This document shows, one piece after another, positions 7,999-27,779 of a stretch of DNA of 43,038 bases. How positions within the stretch are numbered: the stretch's first letter is position 1; every line of letters starts with the position of its first letter. Source of the DNA: Sedimentisphaerales bacterium (GTDB lineage: Bacteria; Planctomycetota; Phycisphaerae; Sedimentisphaerales; SM23-30); assembly GCA_016930855.1 (NCBI GenBank), contig JAFGFX010000047.1, positions 1 through 43,038 of the forward strand, in the 5' to 3' direction. A model generated the notes under the pieces. It was given only the letters and a program-made list of their open reading frames with translations. It did no database searches and was not told the origin of the DNA. The position numbers and the translations under genes are program-made.

Positions 7999-8144
7999 CA
8001 GTCGAGTAGCGGCCGGCGCCGAAGGGCCTCGCTCCGGTCGGTGGGCTCGCATGCGAAGGGGATTGCCCGGTCGAAAGGTGGTTTGGAAATGGAGACGGAA
8101 CGATTGCAGACACGATCCATGATTCGTAAAACGGAGGCATGCGA

Positions 8145-9824
8145 ATGAACATTCAACAACAGGCAATGCTGGCGGTGAATATCACCAATTGGTGGGTATG
8201 GGTTTTGGTGTTTCTGTTTCTGTTTGTGTTCTTCACCCTGTTTTACCTGGCGTCGCGCTACAAGCGCTGTCCGTCGGACCGGATACTGGTCAAGTACGGC
8301 CGGGTGGGCGGGGCCAGCCGCTGCATCCACGGGGGCGGCACCTTTGTCCTGCCGCTGATTCAGGATTACGCCTACCTGAGCCTGACGCCCATGACCATCA
8401 GCATCCCCCTGCAGAACGCCCTGTCGCTGCAGAACATCCGGATCAACGTGCCCAGCACGTTCACCGTGGGGGTCAGCACCGATCCGGCGATCATGAACAA
8501 CGCGGCCGAACGCCTGCTGCGGCTGCCGCCGCGCGACATCGAGGAGATGGCCAAGGAGATCATCTTCGGCCAGTTGCGTCTGACGGTCGCGTCGCTGACC
8601 ATCGAGCAGATCAACCAGGACCGGGAAAGCTTCCTGGAGTCGATCCGCAAGAACGTGGAGCCCGAGCTGAACAAGATCGGCCTCTACCTGATCAACGTGA
8701 ACATCACCGACATCACCGACGAGTCCGACTACATCGAGAGCATCGGCAAGAAGGCGTCCTCCGAGGCGATCAACAAGGCCAAGGTCGACGTGGCCGAGCA
8801 GGAGAAAAACGGCGCCATCGGCGAGGCGCAGGCCAATCGCGAGAAGGAAATCCGCGTGGCGGAGAACATGGCCGAGGCCGAGAAGGGCAAGAAGAAGGCC
8901 GACGCGGACCGGCGGGTGTTCGTCCAGCAGCAGGAAACGATGGCCGCCATCGGCGAGGCCGAGGCGGACCGGGAGAAGGAGATCAAGGTCGCCGAAAATC
9001 TCGCCGCCGCCGACAAGGGCCGCAAGACCGCCGAGGCCGACAAGCGGATTTACATCCAGCAGCAGGAGGCCGGCGCCGTCAAGGGCGAGAAGCAGGCCGA
9101 GGCCGACCGGCGGATCTACGTCCAGGAACAGGAATCGCTGGCCATCGATGGCGAGAACAAAGCCAAGGCGGAGATCGCCGATTTCAATGCCACGCTCGCC
9201 ACCAAGGTGGCGGCCGCCCTGCAGAAGGGCGAGGTCGCCAAGCGCCAGGCCGAGGTCGAGATCCAGAAGGCCCAGTATCTCGCCGAGCAGGAGCGGCTCA
9301 ACGCCGAGGAGGTCGTCAAGAAGGAGATCGAGAAACGCAAGATCGAGATCGCCGCCGAGGCCGAGGCCGAGCGGCTGCGCCGGGAGGCCAAGGGGCAGGC
9401 GGACGCCATCCTGGCCAAGTATGAGGCGGAGGCCAAAGGGGTTCGGCAGGTGCTCGACGCCAAGGCCGAGGGCTATCAATCCCTGGTGGGCAGTTGCCAC
9501 GGCGACGCCAAGGCCGCCGCGACGCTGCTGATGATCGAGAAGATCGAGGAGATCGTCGCCCGCCAGGTCGAGGCCATCAAGAATATCAAGATCGACAAGG
9601 TGACCGTCTGGGACACCGGCGGTGACGGCAAGGGCGGCAACTCCACCTCGAATTTCCTGTCCGGCCTGATCCGCTCGCTCCCGCCGCTGCAGGATGTCGC
9701 GGGCATGGCCGGCGTGCAGTTGCCGGAGTATCTGGGCCGGATGGCCGAGACGAACGCCGGCGAAACCGCCGCCCAGACGACGGCTGCGGCCAAACCGGAC
9801 AAACCAAAGGGCCGGGACGCCTGA
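8145..9824 (+). CDS. Flotillin family protein (SPFH/band 7)
   Basis: 559 residues. I chose ATG 8145 because ACGGAGG (8131-8137) is 7 nt upstream; the ATG at 8139 is only 1 nt from it. One N-terminal membrane segment (about 15-36, very Phe/Leu-rich) is followed by the SPFH/band 7 domain (about 40-215) and then a long Ala/Glu/Lys/Arg coiled coil (about 215-430). The C-terminal part (about 430-520) resembles the flotillin oligomerisation region (AKAAATLLMIEKIEEIVARQ). The coiled coil holds near-repeats of 44 residues, made of 22-residue (two-hendecad) units. It likely forms ring- or cage-like membrane scaffolds with the NfeD-like protein encoded just upstream. It is closest in layout to YqiK/FloT-type flotillins, not FloA. 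A strong terminator follows. Confidence 0.9.
   Translation: MNIQQQAMLAVNITNWWVWVLVFLFLFVFFTLFYLASRYKRCPSDRILVKYGRVGGASRCIHGGGTFVLPLIQDYAYLSLTPMTISIPLQNALSLQNIRINVPSTFTVGVSTDPAIMNNAAERLLRLPPRDIEEMAKEIIFGQLRLTVASLTIEQINQDRESFLESIRKNVEPELNKIGLYLINVNITDITDESDYIESIGKKASSEAINKAKVDVAEQEKNGAIGEAQANREKEIRVAENMAEAEKGKKKADADRRVFVQQQETMAAIGEAEADREKEIKVAENLAAADKGRKTAEADKRIYIQQQEAGAVKGEKQAEADRRIYVQEQESLAIDGENKAKAEIADFNATLATKVAAALQKGEVAKRQAEVEIQKAQYLAEQERLNAEEVVKKEIEKRKIEIAAEAEAERLRREAKGQADAILAKYEAEAKGVRQVLDAKAEGYQSLVGSCHGDAKAAATLLMIEKIEEIVARQVEAIKNIKIDKVTVWDTGGDGKGGNSTSNFLSGLIRSLPPLQDVAGMAGVQLPEYLGRMAETNAGETAAQTTAAAKPDKPKGRDA
8814..9164 (+). repeat. Internal 132/66-bp repeats in the flotillin coiled coil
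   Basis: The segment coding AIGEAQANREKEIRVAEN starts at 8814 and its close copy AIGEAEADREKEIKVAEN at 8946, exactly 132 bp (44 codons) later. Shorter related units begin at 9075 (AVKGEKQAEADRRIYVQ) and 9141 (AIDGENKAKAEI), 66 bp apart. The period of 22 residues equals two hendecads, so the repeat builds a regular coiled-coil stalk. Copies differ at many bases, so this is an old duplication and not a recent slippage product. Confidence 0.7.
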
Positions 9825-9927: not shown

Positions 9928-10998
9928 TCAGTTTTCCTTGTACAGGATGCCGCGTTCCTTCCAGACGGTGATCTGCTGGCGGAATTCCTCGATCGCCAGC
10001 TTGAGCGTGCCCAGCGTGTCGGTCAGGGCTTCATACAGGCGGGGGTCGTTTAGCAGCAGGCTGGCGGTGCCCGAGCCCTGGGACACGCTTTTTATGAGGG
10101 CATCGAGGCCTTGCAGTGCCCGGGCGAACTCGTCGGCGGCCGTCTGGATGTGGACGGCGGTCTCGTGGACGTCCTGGCCGGCGTTTTCGACGGCGCCGTC
10201 GATGCGGCCGACGGTCCGGCGGCCGTCGGCCAGCAGGGTTCGGGCGTCGCGGACGAGGTCCTGGATCTCCTGGATCGTCAGGCGGCCGGTCTCGGTCAGC
10301 TCGGCGAATCGGGCCAGAGATTCCTTGATTAGGCGGCGGTTGTCCGGATCGCCGACGATCCGGTCGAGATGTTCGCAGGTTCGATCCAGACGCATCACCA
10401 CGGTGGTCAGGTTGGCCCGCACGCGGTTGGGATCGGACCGGTCGACCAGTTCCGGCGGCAGGGGTTCCAGTTGGCTGCCAAGCTGCGTGCTCAGCCGGGT
10501 CAGCGAGTCGGCCAGGGCGTTGATTTTCTGCTGCATGGCTTCGGGGATGAACTGCCCGCCGGGATAGACGATGCCCTGCAGGACCTCGCCGCCGGAGAGC
10601 ATCTGGGTCGAGGCGGCCTCGTACAGGTCGAACTGGATGTAGCTGCTGCTCAGGCCGCTTTGGACGATCTTGGGCGTGATGTTGCGGGGGATGTGGTGCT
10701 CGGCGTCGAAGGCCGCGTGCACCACGATCTGGTAGCTCTGCCGCTCGGGATGATCCAGTTCGGCCAGCATGCGGGGCGGCTCCACCCGCAGGACGTATCC
10801 CACGCGATAGCCGCAGAAGTAGACCTCCGAGTTCTGCTGGATGCCCATGGCCTGGGGGAAATAGATGGTGACGGTCCGGGAATCCATCCGGTGGACCAGC
10901 AGGGGCAGGTCCCCGAATTGCAGGACCAGCCAGGCCAGCGCCGCCAGTCCCAGCGAGACGAACAAGGCCACCATGAGATTTCTTCGGGTTTCCTGCAT
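9928..10998 (-). CDS. MlaD/Mce-family lipid transport protein
   Basis: 356 residues from ATG 10998 (MQETRRNLMVALFV); AGGA about 9 nt upstream supports this start over the more distal one at 11076. It has one N-terminal membrane anchor (about 8-28), then a Mce/MlaD domain (about 36-120: VTIYFPQAMGIQQNSEVYFCGYRVGYV, split here as VTIYFPQAMGIQ and YFCGYRVGYV). A long helical C-terminal part with many Leu/Ala/Asp heptads (about 180-340) is expected to form a periplasmic needle or coiled coil. It is the third gene of a permease-ATPase-Mce operon and would be the periplasmic lipid-binding component bridging to the outer membrane. The length of the helical tail resembles PqiB/YebT-like or Mce-type rather than E. 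coli MlaD (about 180 residues). Confidence 0.88.
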   Translation of the reverse strand: MQETRRNLMVALFVSLGLAALAWLVLQFGDLPLLVHRMDSRTVTIYFPQAMGIQQNSEVYFCGYRVGYVLRVEPPRMLAELDHPERQSYQIVVHAAFDAEHHIPRNITPKIVQSGLSSSYIQFDLYEAASTQMLSGGEVLQGIVYPGGQFIPEAMQQKINALADSLTRLSTQLGSQLEPLPPELVDRSDPNRVRANLTTVVMRLDRTCEHLDRIVGDPDNRRLIKESLARFAELTETGRLTIQEIQDLVRDARTLLADGRRTVGRIDGAVENAGQDVHETAVHIQTAADEFARALQGLDALIKSVSQGSGTASLLLNDPRLYEALTDTLGTLKLAIEEFRQQITVWKERGILYKEN

Positions 10999-11096
10999 AG
11001 CGAGCGTATCCTGCTTTCCGATTGACTGCGGCCGTACAGCATACAACGGACCGCCCGCCGAATCAACCGGCCGCACGTGCCAATTTATAACCGCGG

Positions 11097-11885
11097 CTAG
11101 AGGAGGTCTCCATCCAGTCCGTCGCTGCGGCCCTGTAAAAAGTACTGGACCTCGTCCTGTTGGCTTTGCCGGATCTGGCTGGGGGTGCCGTCGGCGACGA
11201 TCCGGCCGTGGCTGAGCATGACGATCCGGTCGCCGACCTTGTAGGCGCTGTGCAGATCGTGCGTCACGACGATCGAGGTGATCTTCAACTCCCGCTGGAG
11301 CTTGATGATCAGGTCGTTGATGACCTCGGCCCGGATGGGGTCCAGGCCCGTGGTGGGCTCGTCGTAGAGGATCACCTCCGGCGAGAGGGCGATGGCCCGG
11401 GCCAGGGCCACGCGCTTGATCTGGCCGCCCGACAGTTCGCTGGGCAGCCGGTCGCCGAAGCCGGCCAGGCCGACGATCGCGAGCTTGTCCTGCACGATCC
11501 GGTCGATCTGCTCGGCGGGATAGTCCGTGTGCTGCACCAGGGGGAAGGCCACGTTTTGGGCGGCGGTTTCGCTGTCGAACAGGGCGCCGGCCTGGAAGAG
11601 AAAGCCGCAGCGGCGGCGCATGGCGGTCAGACGGCTTTCCGGCAGATTGTCGATGCGGACCCGGTCGAAGTACACCTCGCCCCGGTCGGGCCGGATCAGG
11701 ACGATCAGGTGCTTGAGCAGGACGGTCTTGCCGCAGCCGCTGGGGCCGATGATGACGGTGGTCTTGCCCCGCTCCAGGTGCAGGTGAATATCGGTAAGGG
11801 CCTGTACTCTGCCGAAACGCTTGATTACGCCTCGCAGCTCAAACAGGGATTTTGTCGATTCGATTTCGGTTGCACTCTGCGCCAT
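11097..11885 (-). CDS. ABC transporter ATPase, MlaF type
   Basis: 262-residue nucleotide-binding subunit of a phospholipid ABC transporter. Walker A GPSGCGKT at 47-54, signature LSGGQ at 151-155, Walker B with catalytic Glu VILYDEP at 171-177, D-loop TTGLDP, and switch His in VVTHDLHSA. The sequence between Walker A and signature (FLFQAGALFDSETAAQNV) is the typical MlaF/Ttg2A Q-loop region. It lies between the MlaE-like permease and the MlaD-like gene, all on the minus strand. The start MAQSATEIES at 11885 has a short, non-conserved N-terminal extension of about 12 residues before the ABC core. Confidence 0.93.
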   Translation of the reverse strand: MAQSATEIESTKSLFELRGVIKRFGRVQALTDIHLHLERGKTTVIIGPSGCGKTVLLKHLIVLIRPDRGEVYFDRVRIDNLPESRLTAMRRRCGFLFQAGALFDSETAAQNVAFPLVQHTDYPAEQIDRIVQDKLAIVGLAGFGDRLPSELSGGQIKRVALARAIALSPEVILYDEPTTGLDPIRAEVINDLIIKLQRELKITSIVVTHDLHSAYKVGDRIVMLSHGRIVADGTPSQIRQSQQDEVQYFLQGRSDGLDGDLL

Positions 11886-12011
11886 ACGACATTCCCGGTT
11901 CCTTTGGCCTGGTGCGATACCCCCGGCCGGCTGGCTGGCGGGGCTCAGCGGTTCGCTGTGGCCCTCGCCCGGAGACCGCGTCGACGAACCGGCCGGTGGG
12001 GTTTCTTTCGC

Positions 12012-12833
12012 TTAGAGGACGATCCGCAGCCCCCAGATGGTTTCGTAGATGCCCTTGAAGATCACCGCCAGGGCGAAATCCAACGCCAGGATGGTCAGGA
12101 AGCTGTTGACGAAGGCCTCGGTGCAGGCCTTGCCCACCCCATGGGCGCCCGGCTGGCAGTCAAAGCCCTTGAAGCAGCCGATCAGGGCGATCACGGCCCC
12201 GAAGAAGACGCCCTTGATCAGGCCGATCAGGATATCCCACTTTTCGACCACGTGGGCGCTGAAATACCAGTAGGCGTTGCTGTTGACGCCGAAATGACAG
12301 ACGGTGATGAGGTAGCCGCCCAGAACGCCCATGAAATCGGCGTAGATCGTCAGGCAGGGCGTCAGCAGCACGCAGGCCCAGAAGCGGGGCACGACCAGGT
12401 GCTTGATGGGATCGGCGCCCATGGCCCGCAGGGCGTCGATCTGTTCGGTCACGTGCATGGTGCCCAGTTCCGCCGTCAGGGCGCCGCCGACCCGCCCGGC
12501 CAGCATCATGGCGGCCAGCACCGGGCCCAGCTCCTTGACGACCGTTATGTTGATCAGGCTGCCCAGCCGCTCCTCCAGGCCGGCGCCCTTGAACTGTTGG
12601 TAACTCTGGACGGCCAGCGTCATGCCCACGAACGCCCCGGTGATCATGACGACGGGAACGCTCTTGTTGCCGATCTCGTACATCTGGGCCCAGATCCGGG
12701 CCCGTCCGGCGGAGCGCCGACCGGCGCCGGCGTGGAACAGGCCGTGAAACAAGACCTGCCAGTTGAACCGCCAGAATCGTCCCCACTCATCCAGTCGCGC
12801 CAGAAGTCGTGTCACTGCCTTCAGATTTCGCAT
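12012..12833 (-). CDS. MlaE-family ABC transporter permease
   Basis: 273 residues from ATG 12833 (MRNLKAVTRLLA); AAGGAA about 10 nt upstream supports it. The frame stays open upstream as far as 13451, but that part is not MlaE-like and holds a terminator and promoter. Family landmarks: GAFVGMTLAVQSYQQF near 65-80, the conserved core ELGPVLAAMMLAGRVGGAL at about 100-118, and the AELGTMHVTEQIDALRAMG coupling segment just after, followed by four to five membrane helices. First gene of the E-F-D type operon; together they are predicted to move phospholipids between inner and outer membranes. No MlaB (STAS) or MlaC gene is adjacent. Confidence 0.93.
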   Translation of the reverse strand: MRNLKAVTRLLARLDEWGRFWRFNWQVLFHGLFHAGAGRRSAGRARIWAQMYEIGNKSVPVVMITGAFVGMTLAVQSYQQFKGAGLEERLGSLINITVVKELGPVLAAMMLAGRVGGALTAELGTMHVTEQIDALRAMGADPIKHLVVPRFWACVLLTPCLTIYADFMGVLGGYLITVCHFGVNSNAYWYFSAHVVEKWDILIGLIKGVFFGAVIALIGCFKGFDCQPGAHGVGKACTEAFVNSFLTILALDFALAVIFKGIYETIWGLRIVL

Positions 12834-12956
12834 ACGCGATCGGTTCCTTCCACCGTCGGACAAAAGAGACGCCCGAGGAGCCGCGCTTGTCCGGGCGGCT
12901 TCGCTGGTCCTGGCCTTGGGCGGAAAAAGACGCTGCGGATTGCCTTGATGGGCTAT

Positions 12957-13046: not shown

Positions 13047-13104
13047 ATTCGGCCGGTGGACCGTCCAGGCATCCTGGCCGGACATTCGGCACAAACAAGC
13101 CATG

Positions 13105-13132
13105 ATGGGCCCGCCCGTTAGGGCGGGCCCAT
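13105..13132. other. Perfect 12-bp inverted repeat
   Basis: ATGGGCCCGCCC, loop GTTA, GGGCGGGCCCAT. A very stable hairpin 68 bp beyond the stop codon of the Ser/Arg-rich gene. No T-run follows directly on either strand, so it may act as a 3' stabiliser or work with the T-run terminator at 13005-13046. Confidence 0.7.
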
Positions 13133-13200
13133 CGGTTCGCTGGAACGTTTCCACACCGCCGCTGTCGAAAAACCTGCGCTCCCTTGGTCCGTTGGATGAC

Positions 13201-15093
13201 CTAAAACCGCAGGCCCAGGCAGAACTGGGTCCGGAAGAGATCCGGCCAGCATTGATTCCAGAGCAGGGACGCGTGCTTCCAGTGAAAGCGGACGCGGTGA
13301 TAGCCGAACGGATTGAGCCAGCGGAGCCAGAATCGCCGGGCCAGGCCGGACCAGCCGACATGGCTGTACGAGCCGGGGTACCAGCTGACGTATTGGCCGG
13401 CGGGATAGTAGGGATCGGCATAGACCGCCGAGCCGTAATACGGATCGACATACGGGTAATCGGTCACGACCGGATCGTAATACCCGCCGCCGTAGTATCC
13501 GCCATCGTAATAGCCACCGCCGTAATAACCGCCGTCGTAATAGCTGCCGTAGCCGTAGTCGCCGTAGTAGCAGGCCATCGACGGCAGGCTCACGGTGCTT
13601 ATCACCGGCGGATAGATCACCGGGTTGAGCCAGTTGGTGAAGTAGTTGATGGTGGTTCGGTTCCGGATGACGATCTTGGGCGGCCGGGCCACGAAGAGTC
13701 TGGGCAGGCTGCGGATGGCGCGGATCGCGCGGGTACCCCACTGAGGGTGATGGCCGGCGCTAATCAGCGGGCGGCCGTGGCCCCCCGGTCCGCCGAGGGC
13801 CGGCCGGCTGCGGTGGGGCAGGACCATCCGGGTGGTCCGATCCGGCCTTGCGGCCGATCCGATTAAGCGGCCGGTGTTCGCCAATCCGCTTCGAGCCAGG
13901 CCGCTGGTACGATCGCCGCGGGCCAGGCTGCCGGCATCCTGGCGCCGGGCCGCCAGGCCGCTGCCGCCGGTTCGCCGGCGGGACTCGGATGACGAGACCA
14001 TTCGGGTGGTGGTTTGGGTTTCGGCCAGTACGGACGAGCGGGTCTTCTCCGATCGGTTCGAAAGTGACTGCTGGCCGGATCGTACGATCCGCAGGCTGCC
14101 GGAAGAGGCCTCGGAAGTCGAGCGGCCGCGGGTCGCATTATCCGCCGGGCCGGTCGAATCGCTGCGAACCGTCCGAATGGTGCGGACCGTGCCCGCTGTC
14201 GCCGCGCTGTTGTGGCGCGATGGGTCGGCCTTGACCGCCGCGGCACCTGCGATGCCCGTTTCCTGCCGGCGGGAATTGTCCGCCAGGCGGACGGTGCTTG
14301 TCGAGCGGGTTCGATCCGGATTGGTCGAGCGGCCGGTATCGAGACGCATCGCCGAGCGGACGGAGCTGGTGTTGGCGTTACGGATTTCGCCAGCACTGGA
14401 CCGGCTCGTCGCAAGACGTTTCGACGGCAAGTCGATGGTGGTCGCCCGGCTGGAGGAGGAGCTTGCCGTGCGCGAGCTGGCGGTGCGGACCGCGGAACGG
14501 GCCGGGTCCGCGGGCGAACTTGGGGACAGGCGAATCGAGGATGTTTTTGAGGTCGAGCTGGAGCGCAGCGGGCTCGAGCGGGACGTGGTCCGCGAGATGG
14601 AGATCCGGCTCGATGCGGTGCCCGCCGAGGAGGACATCCTGCCGTTGACGCCGGCAGAGCGGTTCGAGGTGACGGCCCTCGGCGTCGAACGGGTCGATAT
14701 AGAGATGCTGGAGCGGTTGCTTATAGTGGGCGCGGCCGGCCGGGAACGGATCGTGCTGCGGCTCAGTGTCGCCGAGGGGCGGCTTGTGCTGCGGCTTGGT
14801 GCGGCGGCCGAACGGCTCATGCTGCGACTGGGTGTTGCCGGGGAACGCGCCGTGCGGCTGCCCAGCGCGGGCGCGGAGTGCGCTGGTGTGGAGCGGCTGG
14901 CGCGTTGCGCGGACGAGGAACTGGCCCGGCTGGTCCGCTGGGAGGCCGGACTGCGCGAGGAAGGGCGTTGGGCCGCCTGGGTTTTGGCCTCCGCCGCCGC
15001 CGCGGCCAGCAATCCCAGGATCGAGATGAACACAATGAATCCCGTCCTCTTATTACGGTGGGGTGATGTGGATGATATTGCGTGCCTGGCCAT
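13201..15093 (-). CDS. Secreted Ser/Arg-rich protein with Tyr/Gly repeats, function unknown
   Basis: 630 residues from ATG 15093; GGAGG 5 nt upstream decides this start. An N-terminal signal (basic MARHAISSTSPHRNKR, hydrophobic core GFIVFISILGLLAAAA, then AEAKT) predicts export. Residues about 40-430 are low complexity, dominated by Ser, Arg, Thr and Ala, with loose repeats such as PSRSTSRPSATLSRST. Residues about 430-505 are more globular (KIVIRNRTTINYFTNW). Residues about 508-551 are Tyr/Gly-rich, with two exact copies of DGGYYGGGYY. The last 80 residues are rich in Trp, Phe and Arg, with cysteines near the end. No enzyme motif is seen. A strongly basic exported protein with Tyr-rich repeats could bind anionic polymers in the envelope or matrix; that is speculation. 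It is monocistronic, with its own terminator. Confidence 0.75.
   Translation of the reverse strand: MARHAISSTSPHRNKRTGFIVFISILGLLAAAAAEAKTQAAQRPSSRSPASQRTSRASSSSAQRASRSTPAHSAPALGSRTARSPATPSRSMSRSAAAPSRSTSRPSATLSRSTIRSRPAAPTISNRSSISISTRSTPRAVTSNRSAGVNGRMSSSAGTASSRISISRTTSRSSPLRSSSTSKTSSIRLSPSSPADPARSAVRTASSRTASSSSSRATTIDLPSKRLATSRSSAGEIRNANTSSVRSAMRLDTGRSTNPDRTRSTSTVRLADNSRRQETGIAGAAAVKADPSRHNSAATAGTVRTIRTVRSDSTGPADNATRGRSTSEASSGSLRIVRSGQQSLSNRSEKTRSSVLAETQTTTRMVSSSESRRRTGGSGLAARRQDAGSLARGDRTSGLARSGLANTGRLIGSAARPDRTTRMVLPHRSRPALGGPGGHGRPLISAGHHPQWGTRAIRAIRSLPRLFVARPPKIVIRNRTTINYFTNWLNPVIYPPVISTVSLPSMACYYGDYGYGSYYDGGYYGGGYYDGGYYGGGYYDPVVTDYPYVDPYYGSAVYADPYYPAGQYVSWYPGSYSHVGWSGLARRFWLRWLNPFGYHRVRFHWKHASLLWNQCWPDLFRTQFCLGLRF
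13474..13533 (-). repeat. 30-bp tandem repeat coding for DGGYYGGGYY
   Basis: Two adjacent 30-bp units (13474-13503 and 13504-13533) with a few base changes, followed by a partial third unit from 13534. They encode the ten-residue repeat in the secreted Ser/Arg-rich protein. Copy number could vary between strains. Confidence 0.75.
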
Positions 15094-15481
15094 GACAACC
15101 TCCTTCCGCCTGCCGGTATTTGTCAATCCCGGCTCTGGGCCGTATCGGCCTATCGGATTGTCGGATGCGTTATGCAGCAACTAGAACGTATGACCCCCGC
15201 CGCGCCCGTCGGGTTAGGAACTATTTGCCGGCCGGGCCGGCGTTATCGCCGGAAAAATGCCCCCTATCGAGGTTGCCAAACGGCCCCGGGCAGTTTTTGT
15301 CCCAACGGGGGTCTCCAGCGGCGGGGAATATAGGGTTGTATCGCCCGGCCGGGAAAGCTAAGCTGGATATATCCTGTCACATCCCCCCCGAAGGGGGTAT
15401 GACGGCCGCGAGGGACGCACCGGAGGGGATATCCCGCGTCCGCGGCGGATTCGTTGGAAATACGTGGGAAAGGACGAGATC
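15094..15481. other. Divergent intergenic region between the Ser/Arg-rich gene and panB
   Basis: 388 bp without a gene. It includes a hairpin at 15376-15403. A TTGACA on the minus strand close to the Ser/Arg-rich gene is too near the start codon to serve it as a -35. I see no convincing promoter pair for panB; GGATATATCC at 15365-15374 is a palindrome of unknown meaning. Confidence 0.5.
15376..15403 (+). other. Hairpin in the panB leader region
   Basis: Imperfect inverted repeat: GTCA-C-ATCCCCC on the left and GGGGGTATGAC on the right around a short CCGAA-type loop, about 80 nt before panB. No T-run follows. It could be an RNA structure of the panB leader; I do not recognise it as a known riboswitch. 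Confidence 0.4.
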
Positions 15482-22976: not shown

Positions 22977-25900
22977 ATGTGGAAAAAACGACTCAAACGA
23001 GGTATCCGCATCCTGCTGTGTCTGTTTTGCCTGGGAACGGCGGGCTATGCGCTGCTGCCCAGTTGCCTGCCGACGGGGATGGTCCGCAGCCGGCTGATCG
23101 CCCAGTTGGAGCGGGATTTCCAGCGGCGGGTTCAGATCGGCCGGATCCATATCAGTTGGTCCCAGGGGGTGCGCATCGAGGACCTGGTCATCCAGCGCAA
23201 GGCGAAATTCGGCCCGGGCCCGCTGCTGCAAATCGACCGGGTCCATACGGCCTTTCGACCGTGGATGCTCCTGCGGCAGGGGTTGCAGACCGTTTACCTG
23301 GAAGACGTCACGCTGTATGTCGTGGCGACCGAGAAGGAGCTGAACGTCATTGATCTGCCGCCCCTGGAGATGTCCCGTCTGGAGGTGGACCGCGCCACCG
23401 TGCATTTCGAGAGCCGCTTGAACGGCCTGGCGACGGAGTCGGTTTTTTCGGTGGGTGCGGCGGTGTTCCTTCAGGATCAGCGCTACGGCGGCACCCGCTG
23501 GCAACTGCAGGCGACCCAGCAGGGCCAGACCGGCCCGACGCTGGTCAGCGGCGGCCAGATCGGGGATTTCCGCGTTCCCGACGCCGGCTTCGGGGGGGCC
23601 AACCGTCAGAATCTCACCCTGAACGTGCAGGAACTGGATCTGCGGCCGCTGCGGCTGGACCGCTGGTTGAATCTGGCGCTGGACCGATCCGAGCGGCCGG
23701 CCGGCGAACCCCTGCCGGTATGTACTGCCCTGGGCGGGGTGTGTTCCGCCGCGCTGCAACTGGAGAACGTGGACGAGGGCGACCTGCAGATTTCGGGCGA
23801 TTTCAAGACATCGAACGTCCAGGTGCAACTTCTCTCGCCCCGCTGGGAGGCGCCCCGGACGTTTGAGCCGGCCGATTGGAGCGGCCAGATCGAACTGGCA
23901 GTCGATCCGATCGGGCCGGCGATCCGGTGTCCGCGGTTCCGACTGGAAGGCCCCGGTCTGCTGATCGCCGGCCAGGGGCTCTATGACGCCCGGCCGGATG
24001 CGTTGACGGGCGTTTCCCTGACGATCGAGCAGGGGCGTCTGGAACCGAACCAATGGATCGCGTGCCTGCCGGCGGACCTGGTCGAGCCGTATCGGGACGC
24101 CCTGGGTTCCGGCCCGATCGAATTTCAATGTCAGTATGACGCCGCCGGGCCGCAGGAGGTCGGCCGGATCCAACTGGACGGCGACCGCTGGCGGTTTCGC
24201 ACCCCCCAGGTGCAGAAGGATTCCCCCGAGCCGTTGCGGCTGGAAGCCCGCTGGACGTTTCATCGGCCCCGCGGCCAATTGGAGATTAACCCCATCCACC
24301 TGCGGTGGGGGACGCTCGAGAGCCGGTCGGAATTGGTGCTTGCCGATGCCGGGAATCTGGCCGGTCTGATCCGGGACGGCCGCTGGGCCCAGCTCTGCCG
24401 GTCGCTGCTGGATGATCTCGGTCAGCCCAGCGGGCAAGCGTCCTGGCAAACGGCCGTCCGCATCGAGCGGCTGGATCAATGGCGCAGACATTTTCCGGCC
24501 CTGGCGCCGCTCGAAGACGATTGGATAAGCCAGGGCCCCCTGGAGATCCACGGCCAATGCCTCAACACCGCCGAGGAACCGAACCAGATCCGTTTGACGG
24601 TGGATCTGCCGAGCGAGGCCCGCTGGCAATGGCTCCAGGACGGCAAGATCCGTTTCAACAAGCCGCCGGGCCAGACATTGCATTGCGAATTGTCCGGACG
24701 TCGGCGGGCAGGATGGGACATCGACGCGCTGCGGATCCGGGCGCGATACGATCAGGCGGAGATCATTTTCGGTCCCGGCCGGCTTGTCTCGGCGAACCCG
24801 ATCCCGATCGCCGCGGCGGATCATCCCCAACTCGCCGACGGCCCGGGGGACCCATCAGCCCTGCAGGATTGGTACGATCTGAGCGGTCGGTACCGGGATC
24901 TCACCGTTCAAGAGCTTGGCGGCGACTGGCAGGTCACCCGCCTGGAGGAATGGCTCGCGTTGCTGCCGGAGATCCGCGCGGATCTTCAGCAGGAAGGCAT
25001 CGACCTGGAGGGGGCCTGCCGGGGTCGGATCGACTATCGCCATGAGCCCGGCCAAAGCTGGGACGGATCCTGCCAGCTGCAATTGCGGGATCTGGCAATA
25101 CGGGCGATCGAGGCTCGGACGGAGTCGGCCCGGAAGAACGCAGCCGCGTCAACAACAGTCCTGTGGCAAAAGCCCGCCGGGACTCCGGCGGCCTGCCGCC
25201 TGCAACTGACCGAAGCGGAGCCCAACGGTCTGGTGGCATATCGCCTGCGGGCCGAACTGCCGGACTTGCAGGTGCAGGCCGACGGTCAGGCCGTCCGGCT
25301 GGCCACGGCGGCCGATAGTCTCGGTCCCCTGCGCCAACGGCAATGGCAGTTCGACGCGCACGTATCCGATTGGGCGACGCTGCGGCGGTACCTGCTGCCC
25401 GATCGCGACTGGGTCGCCACCGTCGGGGATAGCCGCTTATGTTTCGACCGCCTGGCGGGCGGCGGGCATTTTGCCGGAATCCTGCAAATCGGCGAGTTGT
25501 CCGAATCGCTGACCTTTTCCCTTCAGGCGGATGACAGTTCCGCTCGTGTGCAACTATTCGAGGCCGGCGGCGGGGTCCGGCCGCTCTGGCAGAAATCCGC
25601 GGGGACGCCCCTGCGGCTCGACGGGAAGATCGAGCTGGCGATGAAGAACGACTGGCTGGGCATCTTCTGGGACGACGGCCAGTCCGAATCCTCCGGCCGG
25701 CGGCTCCGCTGGAACGAGATATCCCTGCGGACCGACGGCCTGACCGGAACGTTTTCGGGCTATCTGGATTATGAGATCCCGCCGGAGGATTTCGGTCCGG
25801 CCCTCGGCAACCGCTATCTGAAGCTGTTTGGCCGCCAGCGGTTCCGGCTGGACCACGATCGTCTGGATGGAAACTCCTGGCCGTTTTGGCAGGAGATGCG

Positions 25901-27779
25901 ACAGGGGCAGGAAAAGCTGGAGCAACTGGATCTTTCCGGCGTCACGGATATCCAGACCGAATGGACCTGGGACGCCGGCCGGCGGCAGTGGTCCGCTTCG
26001 GCCTGGGCGGATCTGACCGCCACGGATATCCGGGCCGCTTGCCGGTTTGATCCGAACGATCCCGAGCCGTTCCGCTGGGAAAAACCGGCGGCCGAGTCCC
26101 TGCGCCTGGAGGCGGCCGGCCGGGTGGGCTTCTCTTCGGACAGCTGGGATCTGGATCAATGTCGGATTCTTTTCGGATCGAATACCGTTTCGGTTTCCGG
26201 TCGATTTCGCCCGCAAGAGTCAACGGCGGCCGGCGACTCTTTGGATCTGGATCCCGTGGCCGAGCCGTGGATACCGCCGGCGGTGTCGTTGCGGCCGGAG
26301 CGGCTCGAGGTCAGCCTGCGGGCGCCGGACATCTCCGGCCCGGCGAACTGGTTTCCCGCCCTGAGCGGCCTGGACGTGCAGGGAAATCTGGACGCCGATG
26401 TGCAGATCTTCCGGCCGCATCCGTCCGACCCGCTGCGCTGGGAACCATCCCGCGTGCAGGGCCGGATCGCCGCCGTCTGGCAGGACTATCCGCTGGCGCT
26501 GGAGATTCGGGATTGGAAATTCGCCGACAATCACCTGATCCTGCCGGAGGCGTACTTCCAGGTGGGCCAGAATCAGGTATCGCTGGTAGCGGACCTGGAA
26601 CATCCGATTTTAACGCTCCAGGGCTGGAAGGAGGCGTCCAGCCATCCGGCCGGCCGGCTCGATTTGATCTCCCAGCGGGTGGATATGGACGATATCCAGC
26701 GGTTCCTGGAGACCCTGCCGGATCCGTCCGCGCGGACCGGATCGCCGCCGGGAACTCTTCCGGCCGGATCGTCCGCCGAGACGTCCGCCGAGACGTCCTG
26801 CGGGTCCTTTCAATCCTGGTTGACCGGCCTGCAATCGAGTCGCCTGCACGGCGTGTGCCTGTTCCAGGAGCTGGGATACACCGATCCGGCCAGCGGGGTG
26901 CGGATGGACCTGGAGAAACTGGGAGGCAGTTATGCCCTGGCGGCCGGCCAACTCGATCTGGAGTTCACCGCCGGCCTGGGCGGCGGGGCGGTGGAAGGAT
27001 CCTTCCGCATGGATATTCGAGGCCCGGACCCGCAGATCGAGTACCATCAGCAAGCCCGCGAGATCCAGGCCCGCCCGATGCTGCGGGGCCTGGTGGAAAG
27101 CGAGTTTCCCGGCCTGGAGGTGACCGGTTCCATCTCGGAGACCAAGAAGCTTAGCGGCAGTCTCTGCCAGATCCTGCACAGCGGATTCGGCTGGCAGGGA
27201 ACCGGCACCACCCAGTGTCAGCAGGGGATTCTCTACGGTCCCGGCGGTCCCGGCTGGGTCCTGCGGGTCTTCCCCGGCCTCCAGCTGGTCAAGTATGCCT
27301 GGCGGGAATTCACCAACGAATACACGCTGGCGCCGGACGGCACGAAGAAAAACACCATGCTGTTCAAGGGCAGCCCCATCGATATCTACGTGGACGGGGA
27401 TTCCCGGCCGGTCCGGGACGAGGGCGAATACCGCACGCTGATGGAGACCCTGCAGAAGGATCTGGAGATCAGCCGCCGCAAGCTGGGGGACCTGGTCGCC
27501 TCGGGCGCCGACGATACCACGGGCGAGGCGGGCTACATCCGCCGCCGGACCGAGGGGCTCGAGCAGTTGTGGCGCCGGCATCAGGCCGGCCAAACCCTGC
27601 GGGCGGCCCGGGCGAACTACACCGTGGGCGGCCTGATCAGCACCAAGCGGCGGGAGGATTTCGCCAAGCCGACCGAGATCCTGCGGATCCCGATCTTTCA
27701 GACCCGCAGTTATATCGTCGACCGCCAGATGGTCGGCATCGAAACCAGCAACGTGCCGTTCAATCCCCTGGGACTCTGA
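22977..27779 (+). CDS. Very large AsmA-like envelope protein
   Basis: 1600 residues. A basic N-terminus is followed by one membrane anchor (about 9-30: IRILLCLFCLGTAGYALL), and then the typical AsmA/TamB-family opening, a first beta-rich unit with FQRRVQIGRIHISWSQGVRI and IEDLVIQRKA. The rest is a long series of beta-strand-like segments expected to fold as a hydrophobic groove that spans the periplasm. The C-terminal region (about 1310-1520) has the AsmA-C features (GGGAVEGSFRMDIRGP, then HSGFGWQGTGTTQCQQGILYG). A short charged helix follows (about 1475-1545), and the end is FQTRSYIVDRQMVGIE. Such proteins are implicated in phospholipid transport to the outer membrane. It is one gene without frameshift. 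The family assignment is by pattern, not by search. Confidence 0.75.
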   Translation: MWKKRLKRGIRILLCLFCLGTAGYALLPSCLPTGMVRSRLIAQLERDFQRRVQIGRIHISWSQGVRIEDLVIQRKAKFGPGPLLQIDRVHTAFRPWMLLRQGLQTVYLEDVTLYVVATEKELNVIDLPPLEMSRLEVDRATVHFESRLNGLATESVFSVGAAVFLQDQRYGGTRWQLQATQQGQTGPTLVSGGQIGDFRVPDAGFGGANRQNLTLNVQELDLRPLRLDRWLNLALDRSERPAGEPLPVCTALGGVCSAALQLENVDEGDLQISGDFKTSNVQVQLLSPRWEAPRTFEPADWSGQIELAVDPIGPAIRCPRFRLEGPGLLIAGQGLYDARPDALTGVSLTIEQGRLEPNQWIACLPADLVEPYRDALGSGPIEFQCQYDAAGPQEVGRIQLDGDRWRFRTPQVQKDSPEPLRLEARWTFHRPRGQLEINPIHLRWGTLESRSELVLADAGNLAGLIRDGRWAQLCRSLLDDLGQPSGQASWQTAVRIERLDQWRRHFPALAPLEDDWISQGPLEIHGQCLNTAEEPNQIRLTVDLPSEARWQWLQDGKIRFNKPPGQTLHCELSGRRRAGWDIDALRIRARYDQAEIIFGPGRLVSANPIPIAAADHPQLADGPGDPSALQDWYDLSGRYRDLTVQELGGDWQVTRLEEWLALLPEIRADLQQEGIDLEGACRGRIDYRHEPGQSWDGSCQLQLRDLAIRAIEARTESARKNAAASTTVLWQKPAGTPAACRLQLTEAEPNGLVAYRLRAELPDLQVQADGQAVRLATAADSLGPLRQRQWQFDAHVSDWATLRRYLLPDRDWVATVGDSRLCFDRLAGGGHFAGILQIGELSESLTFSLQADDSSARVQLFEAGGGVRPLWQKSAGTPLRLDGKIELAMKNDWLGIFWDDGQSESSGRRLRWNEISLRTDGLTGTFSGYLDYEIPPEDFGPALGNRYLKLFGRQRFRLDHDRLDGNSWPFWQEMRQGQEKLEQLDLSGVTDIQTEWTWDAGRRQWSASAWADLTATDIRAACRFDPNDPEPFRWEKPAAESLRLEAAGRVGFSSDSWDLDQCRILFGSNTVSVSGRFRPQESTAAGDSLDLDPVAEPWIPPAVSLRPERLEVSLRAPDISGPANWFPALSGLDVQGNLDADVQIFRPHPSDPLRWEPSRVQGRIAAVWQDYPLALEIRDWKFADNHLILPEAYFQVGQNQVSLVADLEHPILTLQGWKEASSHPAGRLDLISQRVDMDDIQRFLETLPDPSARTGSPPGTLPAGSSAETSAETSCGSFQSWLTGLQSSRLHGVCLFQELGYTDPASGVRMDLEKLGGSYALAAGQLDLEFTAGLGGGAVEGSFRMDIRGPDPQIEYHQQAREIQARPMLRGLVESEFPGLEVTGSISETKKLSGSLCQILHSGFGWQGTGTTQCQQGILYGPGGPGWVLRVFPGLQLVKYAWREFTNEYTLAPDGTKKNTMLFKGSPIDIYVDGDSRPVRDEGEYRTLMETLQKDLEISRRKLGDLVASGADDTTGEAGYIRRRTEGLEQLWRRHQAGQTLRAARANYTVGGLISTKRREDFAKPTEILRIPIFQTRSYIVDRQMVGIETSNVPFNPLGL

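Follow-up and report, generated by a model that had tools for sequence, protein, structure and literature searches.

Gene content of the locus

The window, as we call the whole stretch of 43,038 nucleotides that was analysed, carries on its minus strand a gene for a putatively exported protein, P0001, directly upstream of mlaE. The features of this gene and its surroundings are the following.

12012..12840, minus strand: mlaE (Pfam MlaE, PF02405), the downstream neighbour; start approximate
13104..13133, minus strand: GC-rich 13-bp hairpin 3′ of P0001 (-31.9 kcal/mol, z -5.7)
13201..15093, minus strand: P0001 coding sequence, stop included, 630 aa from ATG, backed by same-locus relatives
13204..13224, minus strand: C-terminal heptapeptide FCLGLRF, outer-membrane-protein-like by its likeness to the lineage BamA end FSFGLSF
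13204..13338, minus strand: aromatic C-terminal segment, residues 586-630, conserved in G006 and G011 (comparison)
13474..13569, minus strand: Tyr/Gly patch, residues 509-540 (translation and DNA repeat)
13570..13803, minus strand: linker, residues 431-508, with PRLFVARPPKIVIRNRTTINYF..NPVIYPP, in part common to relatives (comparison)
13804..14985, minus strand: low-complexity basic Ser/Arg/Thr/Ala arm, residues 37-430, presumably disordered (composition)
14986..15093, minus strand: signal peptide, residues 1-36, with cleavage placed by inspection between AEA and KT (translation)
15098..15105, minus strand: Shine-Dalgarno sequence AAGGAGGT, just before the P0001 ATG

A 450-aa open frame runs antisense to P0001 (13832-15184, plus strand). 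Coding on the minus strand is preferred because P0001 uses codons much as the adjacent genes mla, panB, deg and lon do and because relatives carry a gene of like layout at this position; the P0001 frame is real. Its good Shine-Dalgarno sequence bears out the strong ribosome binding site described in the first-pass annotation, and the gene is probably expressed. The terminator that had also been assigned to it stands only in part: the hairpin at 13104-13133 is very stable, but it has no T-run and a terminator scan found none.

The gene order lon-deg-panB, P0001, mlaE is the same in the related genome G001. Beyond mlaE, the mlaE-mlaF-mlaD genes (9928-12840, minus strand) lie tail to tail with a flotillin/SPFH gene (8139-9824, plus strand). 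Elsewhere in the window, a 1600-aa frame (22977-27779, plus strand) has a hydrophobic N-terminal segment and matches nothing in Pfam at E 1e-5; it is possibly a large AsmA/TamB-like envelope protein.

Layout of the protein

The signal peptide of P0001 shows, on inspection, a basic n-region and the core TGFIVFISILGLLAAAAA ahead of the AEA/KT site, as had been claimed, and by sequence signal peptides also start those relatives whose N-terminus is present in the contig. The stretch of about 390 low-complexity residues was likewise correctly recognized, Ser, Arg, Thr and Ala making up 66% of residues 37-430. Two exact DGGYYGGGYY units were found where the earlier reading had seen them, at residues 520-529 and 530-539 (13477-13536), within a 15-bp/30-bp tandem repeat (13474-13550) of about five 15-bp units. 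The C-terminus, described before as rich in Trp, Phe and Arg and as containing cysteines, is indeed rich in W, F, R, H and Y, and cysteines are present (508, 615 and 625 in the chain), but their positions are not kept in relatives. A very basic exported chain had also been proposed; this applies to P0001 itself (pI 11.7), but not to the family at large, since the G001 member, basic in its N-terminal half but acidic in the half that holds the Tyr patch, has a pI of 6.5.

No credible match for P0001 or its relatives came from Pfam, NCBIfam, PHROGs or the PDB sequences, in agreement with the first-pass view that no named family or domain has this layout. A match of the C-terminal half to a characterized domain, which the earlier reading would have taken as a refutation, was thus not obtained. 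Matches to Pfam, NCBIfam and PHROG entries at E 0.0002-0.5 each involved one to three members, under names mutually unrelated and foreign to the layout, and are ascribed to chance or to the composition of the arm; PDB matches at E 0.2-0.65 were rejected. Pfam detected a YadA-like anchor domain in none of the five members, nor an MlaA domain in any of them. A literature search for Tyr-rich exported planctomycete proteins found none.

Relatives and distribution

A search of related genomes with the C-terminal 180 residues returned two weak matches, in G006 and G011, both from genes that, like P0001, immediately precede mlaE. With mlaE (P0002) as an anchor, further members were located in G001 and G012. 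Genes of the same layout stand directly upstream of mlaE, on the same strand, in the window and in these four genomes.

By alignment, the window, G006 and G011 proteins score as clear homologues: their Smith-Waterman scores exceed those of all 300 local-composition shuffles, with z values of 5.5-7.5 for the C-terminal part and 6.0-7.1 for the last 75 aa. The G001 and G012 proteins are homologous to each other, and third-position changes between them exceed those at first and second positions. Their sequence link to the window protein is weak (z 2.5 and 3.2). Because a profile built from this pair matched neither the window protein nor that of G006, their membership is based mainly on position and layout, the features concerned being the position, the signal peptide (seen in G001 but not readable in G012, where the contig is cut), the basic arm, the Tyr patch, a partial "IRNxTT" linker, and the C-terminal end.

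The gene lies beside mlaE in five of the 13 genomes of the window's family. Presence in close relatives had been put forward earlier as a check on the reading frame, with a mixed outcome: the frame recurs in the four relatives named above, but it is missing beside mlaE in the closest relative by MlaE (G002, 83% identity), in G004, which has panB immediately next to mlaE, in G009, and in G010 (within about 0.9 kb of upstream contig). Four genomes were left out of this count, G003 and G008 for contig ends and G005 and G007 for want of a close mlaE. None of 40 genomes from the order's other families has a gene of this kind upstream of mlaE. From these absences we regard the gene as a lineage-restricted, patchy neighbour and not as a core or essential part of Mla.

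Profiles run against 118 genomes of the order and 392 of the phylum produced no further credible member, at a sensitivity that could miss very divergent ones. Weak order-level matches (L008-L010, E 0.03-0.08) were not accepted as relatives, and a match in G400 from the phylum search proved to be an Omp85 protein aligned outside the conserved C-terminus, which we attribute to chance. On the strength of these searches, the gene represents a small, fast-changing orphan family, known to date from a single family of Sedimentisphaerales (Phycisphaerae).

What varies and what persists

The arm is S/R-rich in the window protein, Q/A/R-rich in those of G001, G012 and G011, and K/N/R/S-rich in that of G006. 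The net charge of the N-terminal two thirds is about +52 in the window, +82 in G006, +16 in G011 and +26 in G001, and the arm is net positive in all members despite the change in composition. A wholly changed composition with the layout kept is what would be expected of a flexible charged chain. The Tyr patch is also kept, built from differing short repeats (DGGYYGGGYY, YANDTYADDTYASGTY and YDNGYYQEDVYDNSYYDD); the exact decapeptide is not conserved in relatives and has to be given up as a family feature.

The persistent element, on comparison of the five sequences, is the aromatic C-terminus, and within it chiefly the final seven residues: FCLGLRF, FSAHLHF, LNMALGF, WSLGFEW and WSLGFEW. The outer-membrane-protein-like character of this end had gone unremarked in the first-pass annotation. 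The terminal residue is aromatic (F or W) in all five, and position -3 is hydrophobic in all five. We expressed this as a pattern with a terminal aromatic, hydrophobic residues at -3, -5 and -7, and no bulky hydrophobic residue at -2, -4 or -6. Of 229 ORFs in the window and the fetched loci, the five members fit it and none of the other 224 does, figures that are to be read with the pattern having been framed after the members were seen, with an ORF background holding many spurious frames, and with related members that are not independent.

The C-terminus and the outer membrane

Among BamA proteins of the same bacterial family, eight of nine fit the pattern, with FSFSFGLSF-like ends. This end is very constant in L086-L094, as F[SN]F[STN]FG[LMV][STN]F (one ends in L), and offers a useful lineage-specific outer-membrane signal. 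LptD-like proteins of the lineage, the second control, end without the pattern, which weakens the generality of the signature; a further outer-membrane control, BBP2, had no match anywhere. The presence of BamA in relatives, together with a weak LptD match in the organism's own genome, is consistent with an outer membrane being present.

The published β-signal reads zeta-x-G-x-x-[aromatic/hydrophobic]-x-[aromatic/hydrophobic], with -8 polar, Gly at -6, and -3 and -1 aromatic or hydrophobic (PMC10945584). P0001 shares with this signal of BAM substrates the terminal aromatic, the hydrophobic residues at -3, -5 and -7, and the polar -8, but it has Cys at -6, and its Gly is at -4 instead of -6 (PMC10945584). 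The lineage BamA also has its Gly at -4, in the same register as P0001. In the window, G006 and G011 proteins taken as a set, the final 7-14 residues show β-strand periodicity (p about 0.007-0.03) and no helical periodicity; the segments before this strand show no clear β periodicity and so far give no evidence of barrel strands ahead of the last one. AlphaFold, run with two sequences, returned no usable model for the C-terminal 190 residues (pLDDT 34), and for the last 67 residues a weak helical model with no strands (pLDDT 57). Outer-membrane targeting of P0001 through its C-terminus is, from these comparisons, a supported possibility.

Interpretation

Our tentative preference is for P0001 as a Sec-exported, largely disordered, cationic and Tyr-rich envelope protein whose C-terminus positions it at the outer membrane, with presumed disorder, polyanion binding, location and structural role. 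The signal peptide would direct the chain to Sec, and the C-terminus would serve as a positional anchor, with a last strand that resembles the signal read by BAM, so that P0001 would probably come to lie at the outer membrane or within it. The flexible positive arm, its sequence free to vary, would be likely to bind anionic polymers of the envelope by charge (LPS, or peptidoglycan-linked or surface polysaccharide), and Tyr/Arg contacts, together with the Tyr patch, may help self-association. If BAM inserts the protein without autotransport, the arm would be periplasmic and might link peptidoglycan with the outer membrane; if surface-exposed, it might form an adhesive coat. A bolder version, which we hold to be quite unlikely, would make it a new minimal surface protein of Phycisphaerae, in which a very short BAM-read C-terminal anchor displays a freely exchangeable, cationic, low-complexity arm which bears Tyr repeats and self-associates at the cell surface.

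Low-complexity Tyr/Arg proteins of the FUS/TAF15 type and Tyr-rich structural proteins form a natural comparison class, in which Tyr and Arg are known to act as stickers. P0001 has the Tyr-Gly repeats and the Arg-rich, presumably disordered stretch of this class, but unlike the FUS/TAF15 type it is bacterial, exported, unrelated in sequence and without a nucleic-acid-binding domain. Such sticker behaviour, and the occurrence in the members of Tyr-rich patches with turn residues beside basic arms, speak, in line with the earlier idea, for a protein that is released to serve as extracellular matrix or adhesive and is set by Arg/Tyr coacervation or by dityrosine cross-links. At the locus, however, no secretion partner or peroxidase was seen adjacent to P0001, and the conserved C-terminus points to a product kept at a membrane, not to one set free, so that we consider this rather unlikely. 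A holdfast role, binding of mineral or polysaccharide and cross-linking through tyrosine, all proposed in the first-pass annotation, are conjectural. Patchy presence, extreme divergence and the failure to find homologues elsewhere would suit an orphan that evolves rapidly within one lineage and is dispensable or redundant in the envelope, its C-terminal pattern inherited from one ancestor and devoid of sorting meaning. Yet members that can otherwise scarcely be aligned still share the pattern, and the excess of third-position changes between G001 and G012 also argues against it; we judge it unlikely.

The chromosomal position raises the question of lipid transport. In five family genomes the gene is next to the Mla operon (MlaE PF02405, MlaF, MlaD PF02470), immediately upstream of mlaE and co-directional with it, and MlaA (PF04333) was found in one of the 13 family genomes (G002) and not in the other 12, while MlaE was found in 12. 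One could imagine P0001 working with the adjacent MlaE-MlaF-MlaD transporter, as an accessory protein or as an outer-membrane partner in place of MlaA, but this strikes us as very unlikely: P0001 has no Mla domain and is absent beside most mlaE genes examined, mlaE being kept without it in G002, G004, G009, G010 and all 40 genomes sampled from other families; the gene is likewise missing from other genomes that have no MlaA; and in the window about 360 bp and a strong hairpin separate P0001 from mlaE. Trimeric autotransporter adhesins (type Vc; PMC6604945) have, like P0001, a signal peptide, a long variable low-complexity passenger and a short C-terminal segment. The β-signal-like end that follows the long variable passenger, and the Q/A-rich, probably helical repeats in the arms of G001, G012 and G011, would fit a new short oligomeric outer-membrane anchor of this kind with an exposed low-complexity passenger. 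We give this little credence as well, because P0001 differs from these adhesins (PMC6604945) in having no YadA-anchor match, no coiled-coil stalk leading into the C-terminus and no four predicted strands, and by inspection it is Tyr/Pro/Gly-rich sequence, not coiled coil, that precedes the C-terminus.

If the C-terminus does direct the chain to the outer membrane, as the reading that we prefer has it, a small anchor of a new kind would be at hand, and the protein would show, in a group of which few members are in culture, that a bacterial envelope protein can keep its layout while its sequence changes. To the envelope biology of planctomycetes the finding contributes a defined orphan family whose putative sorting motif can be tested.
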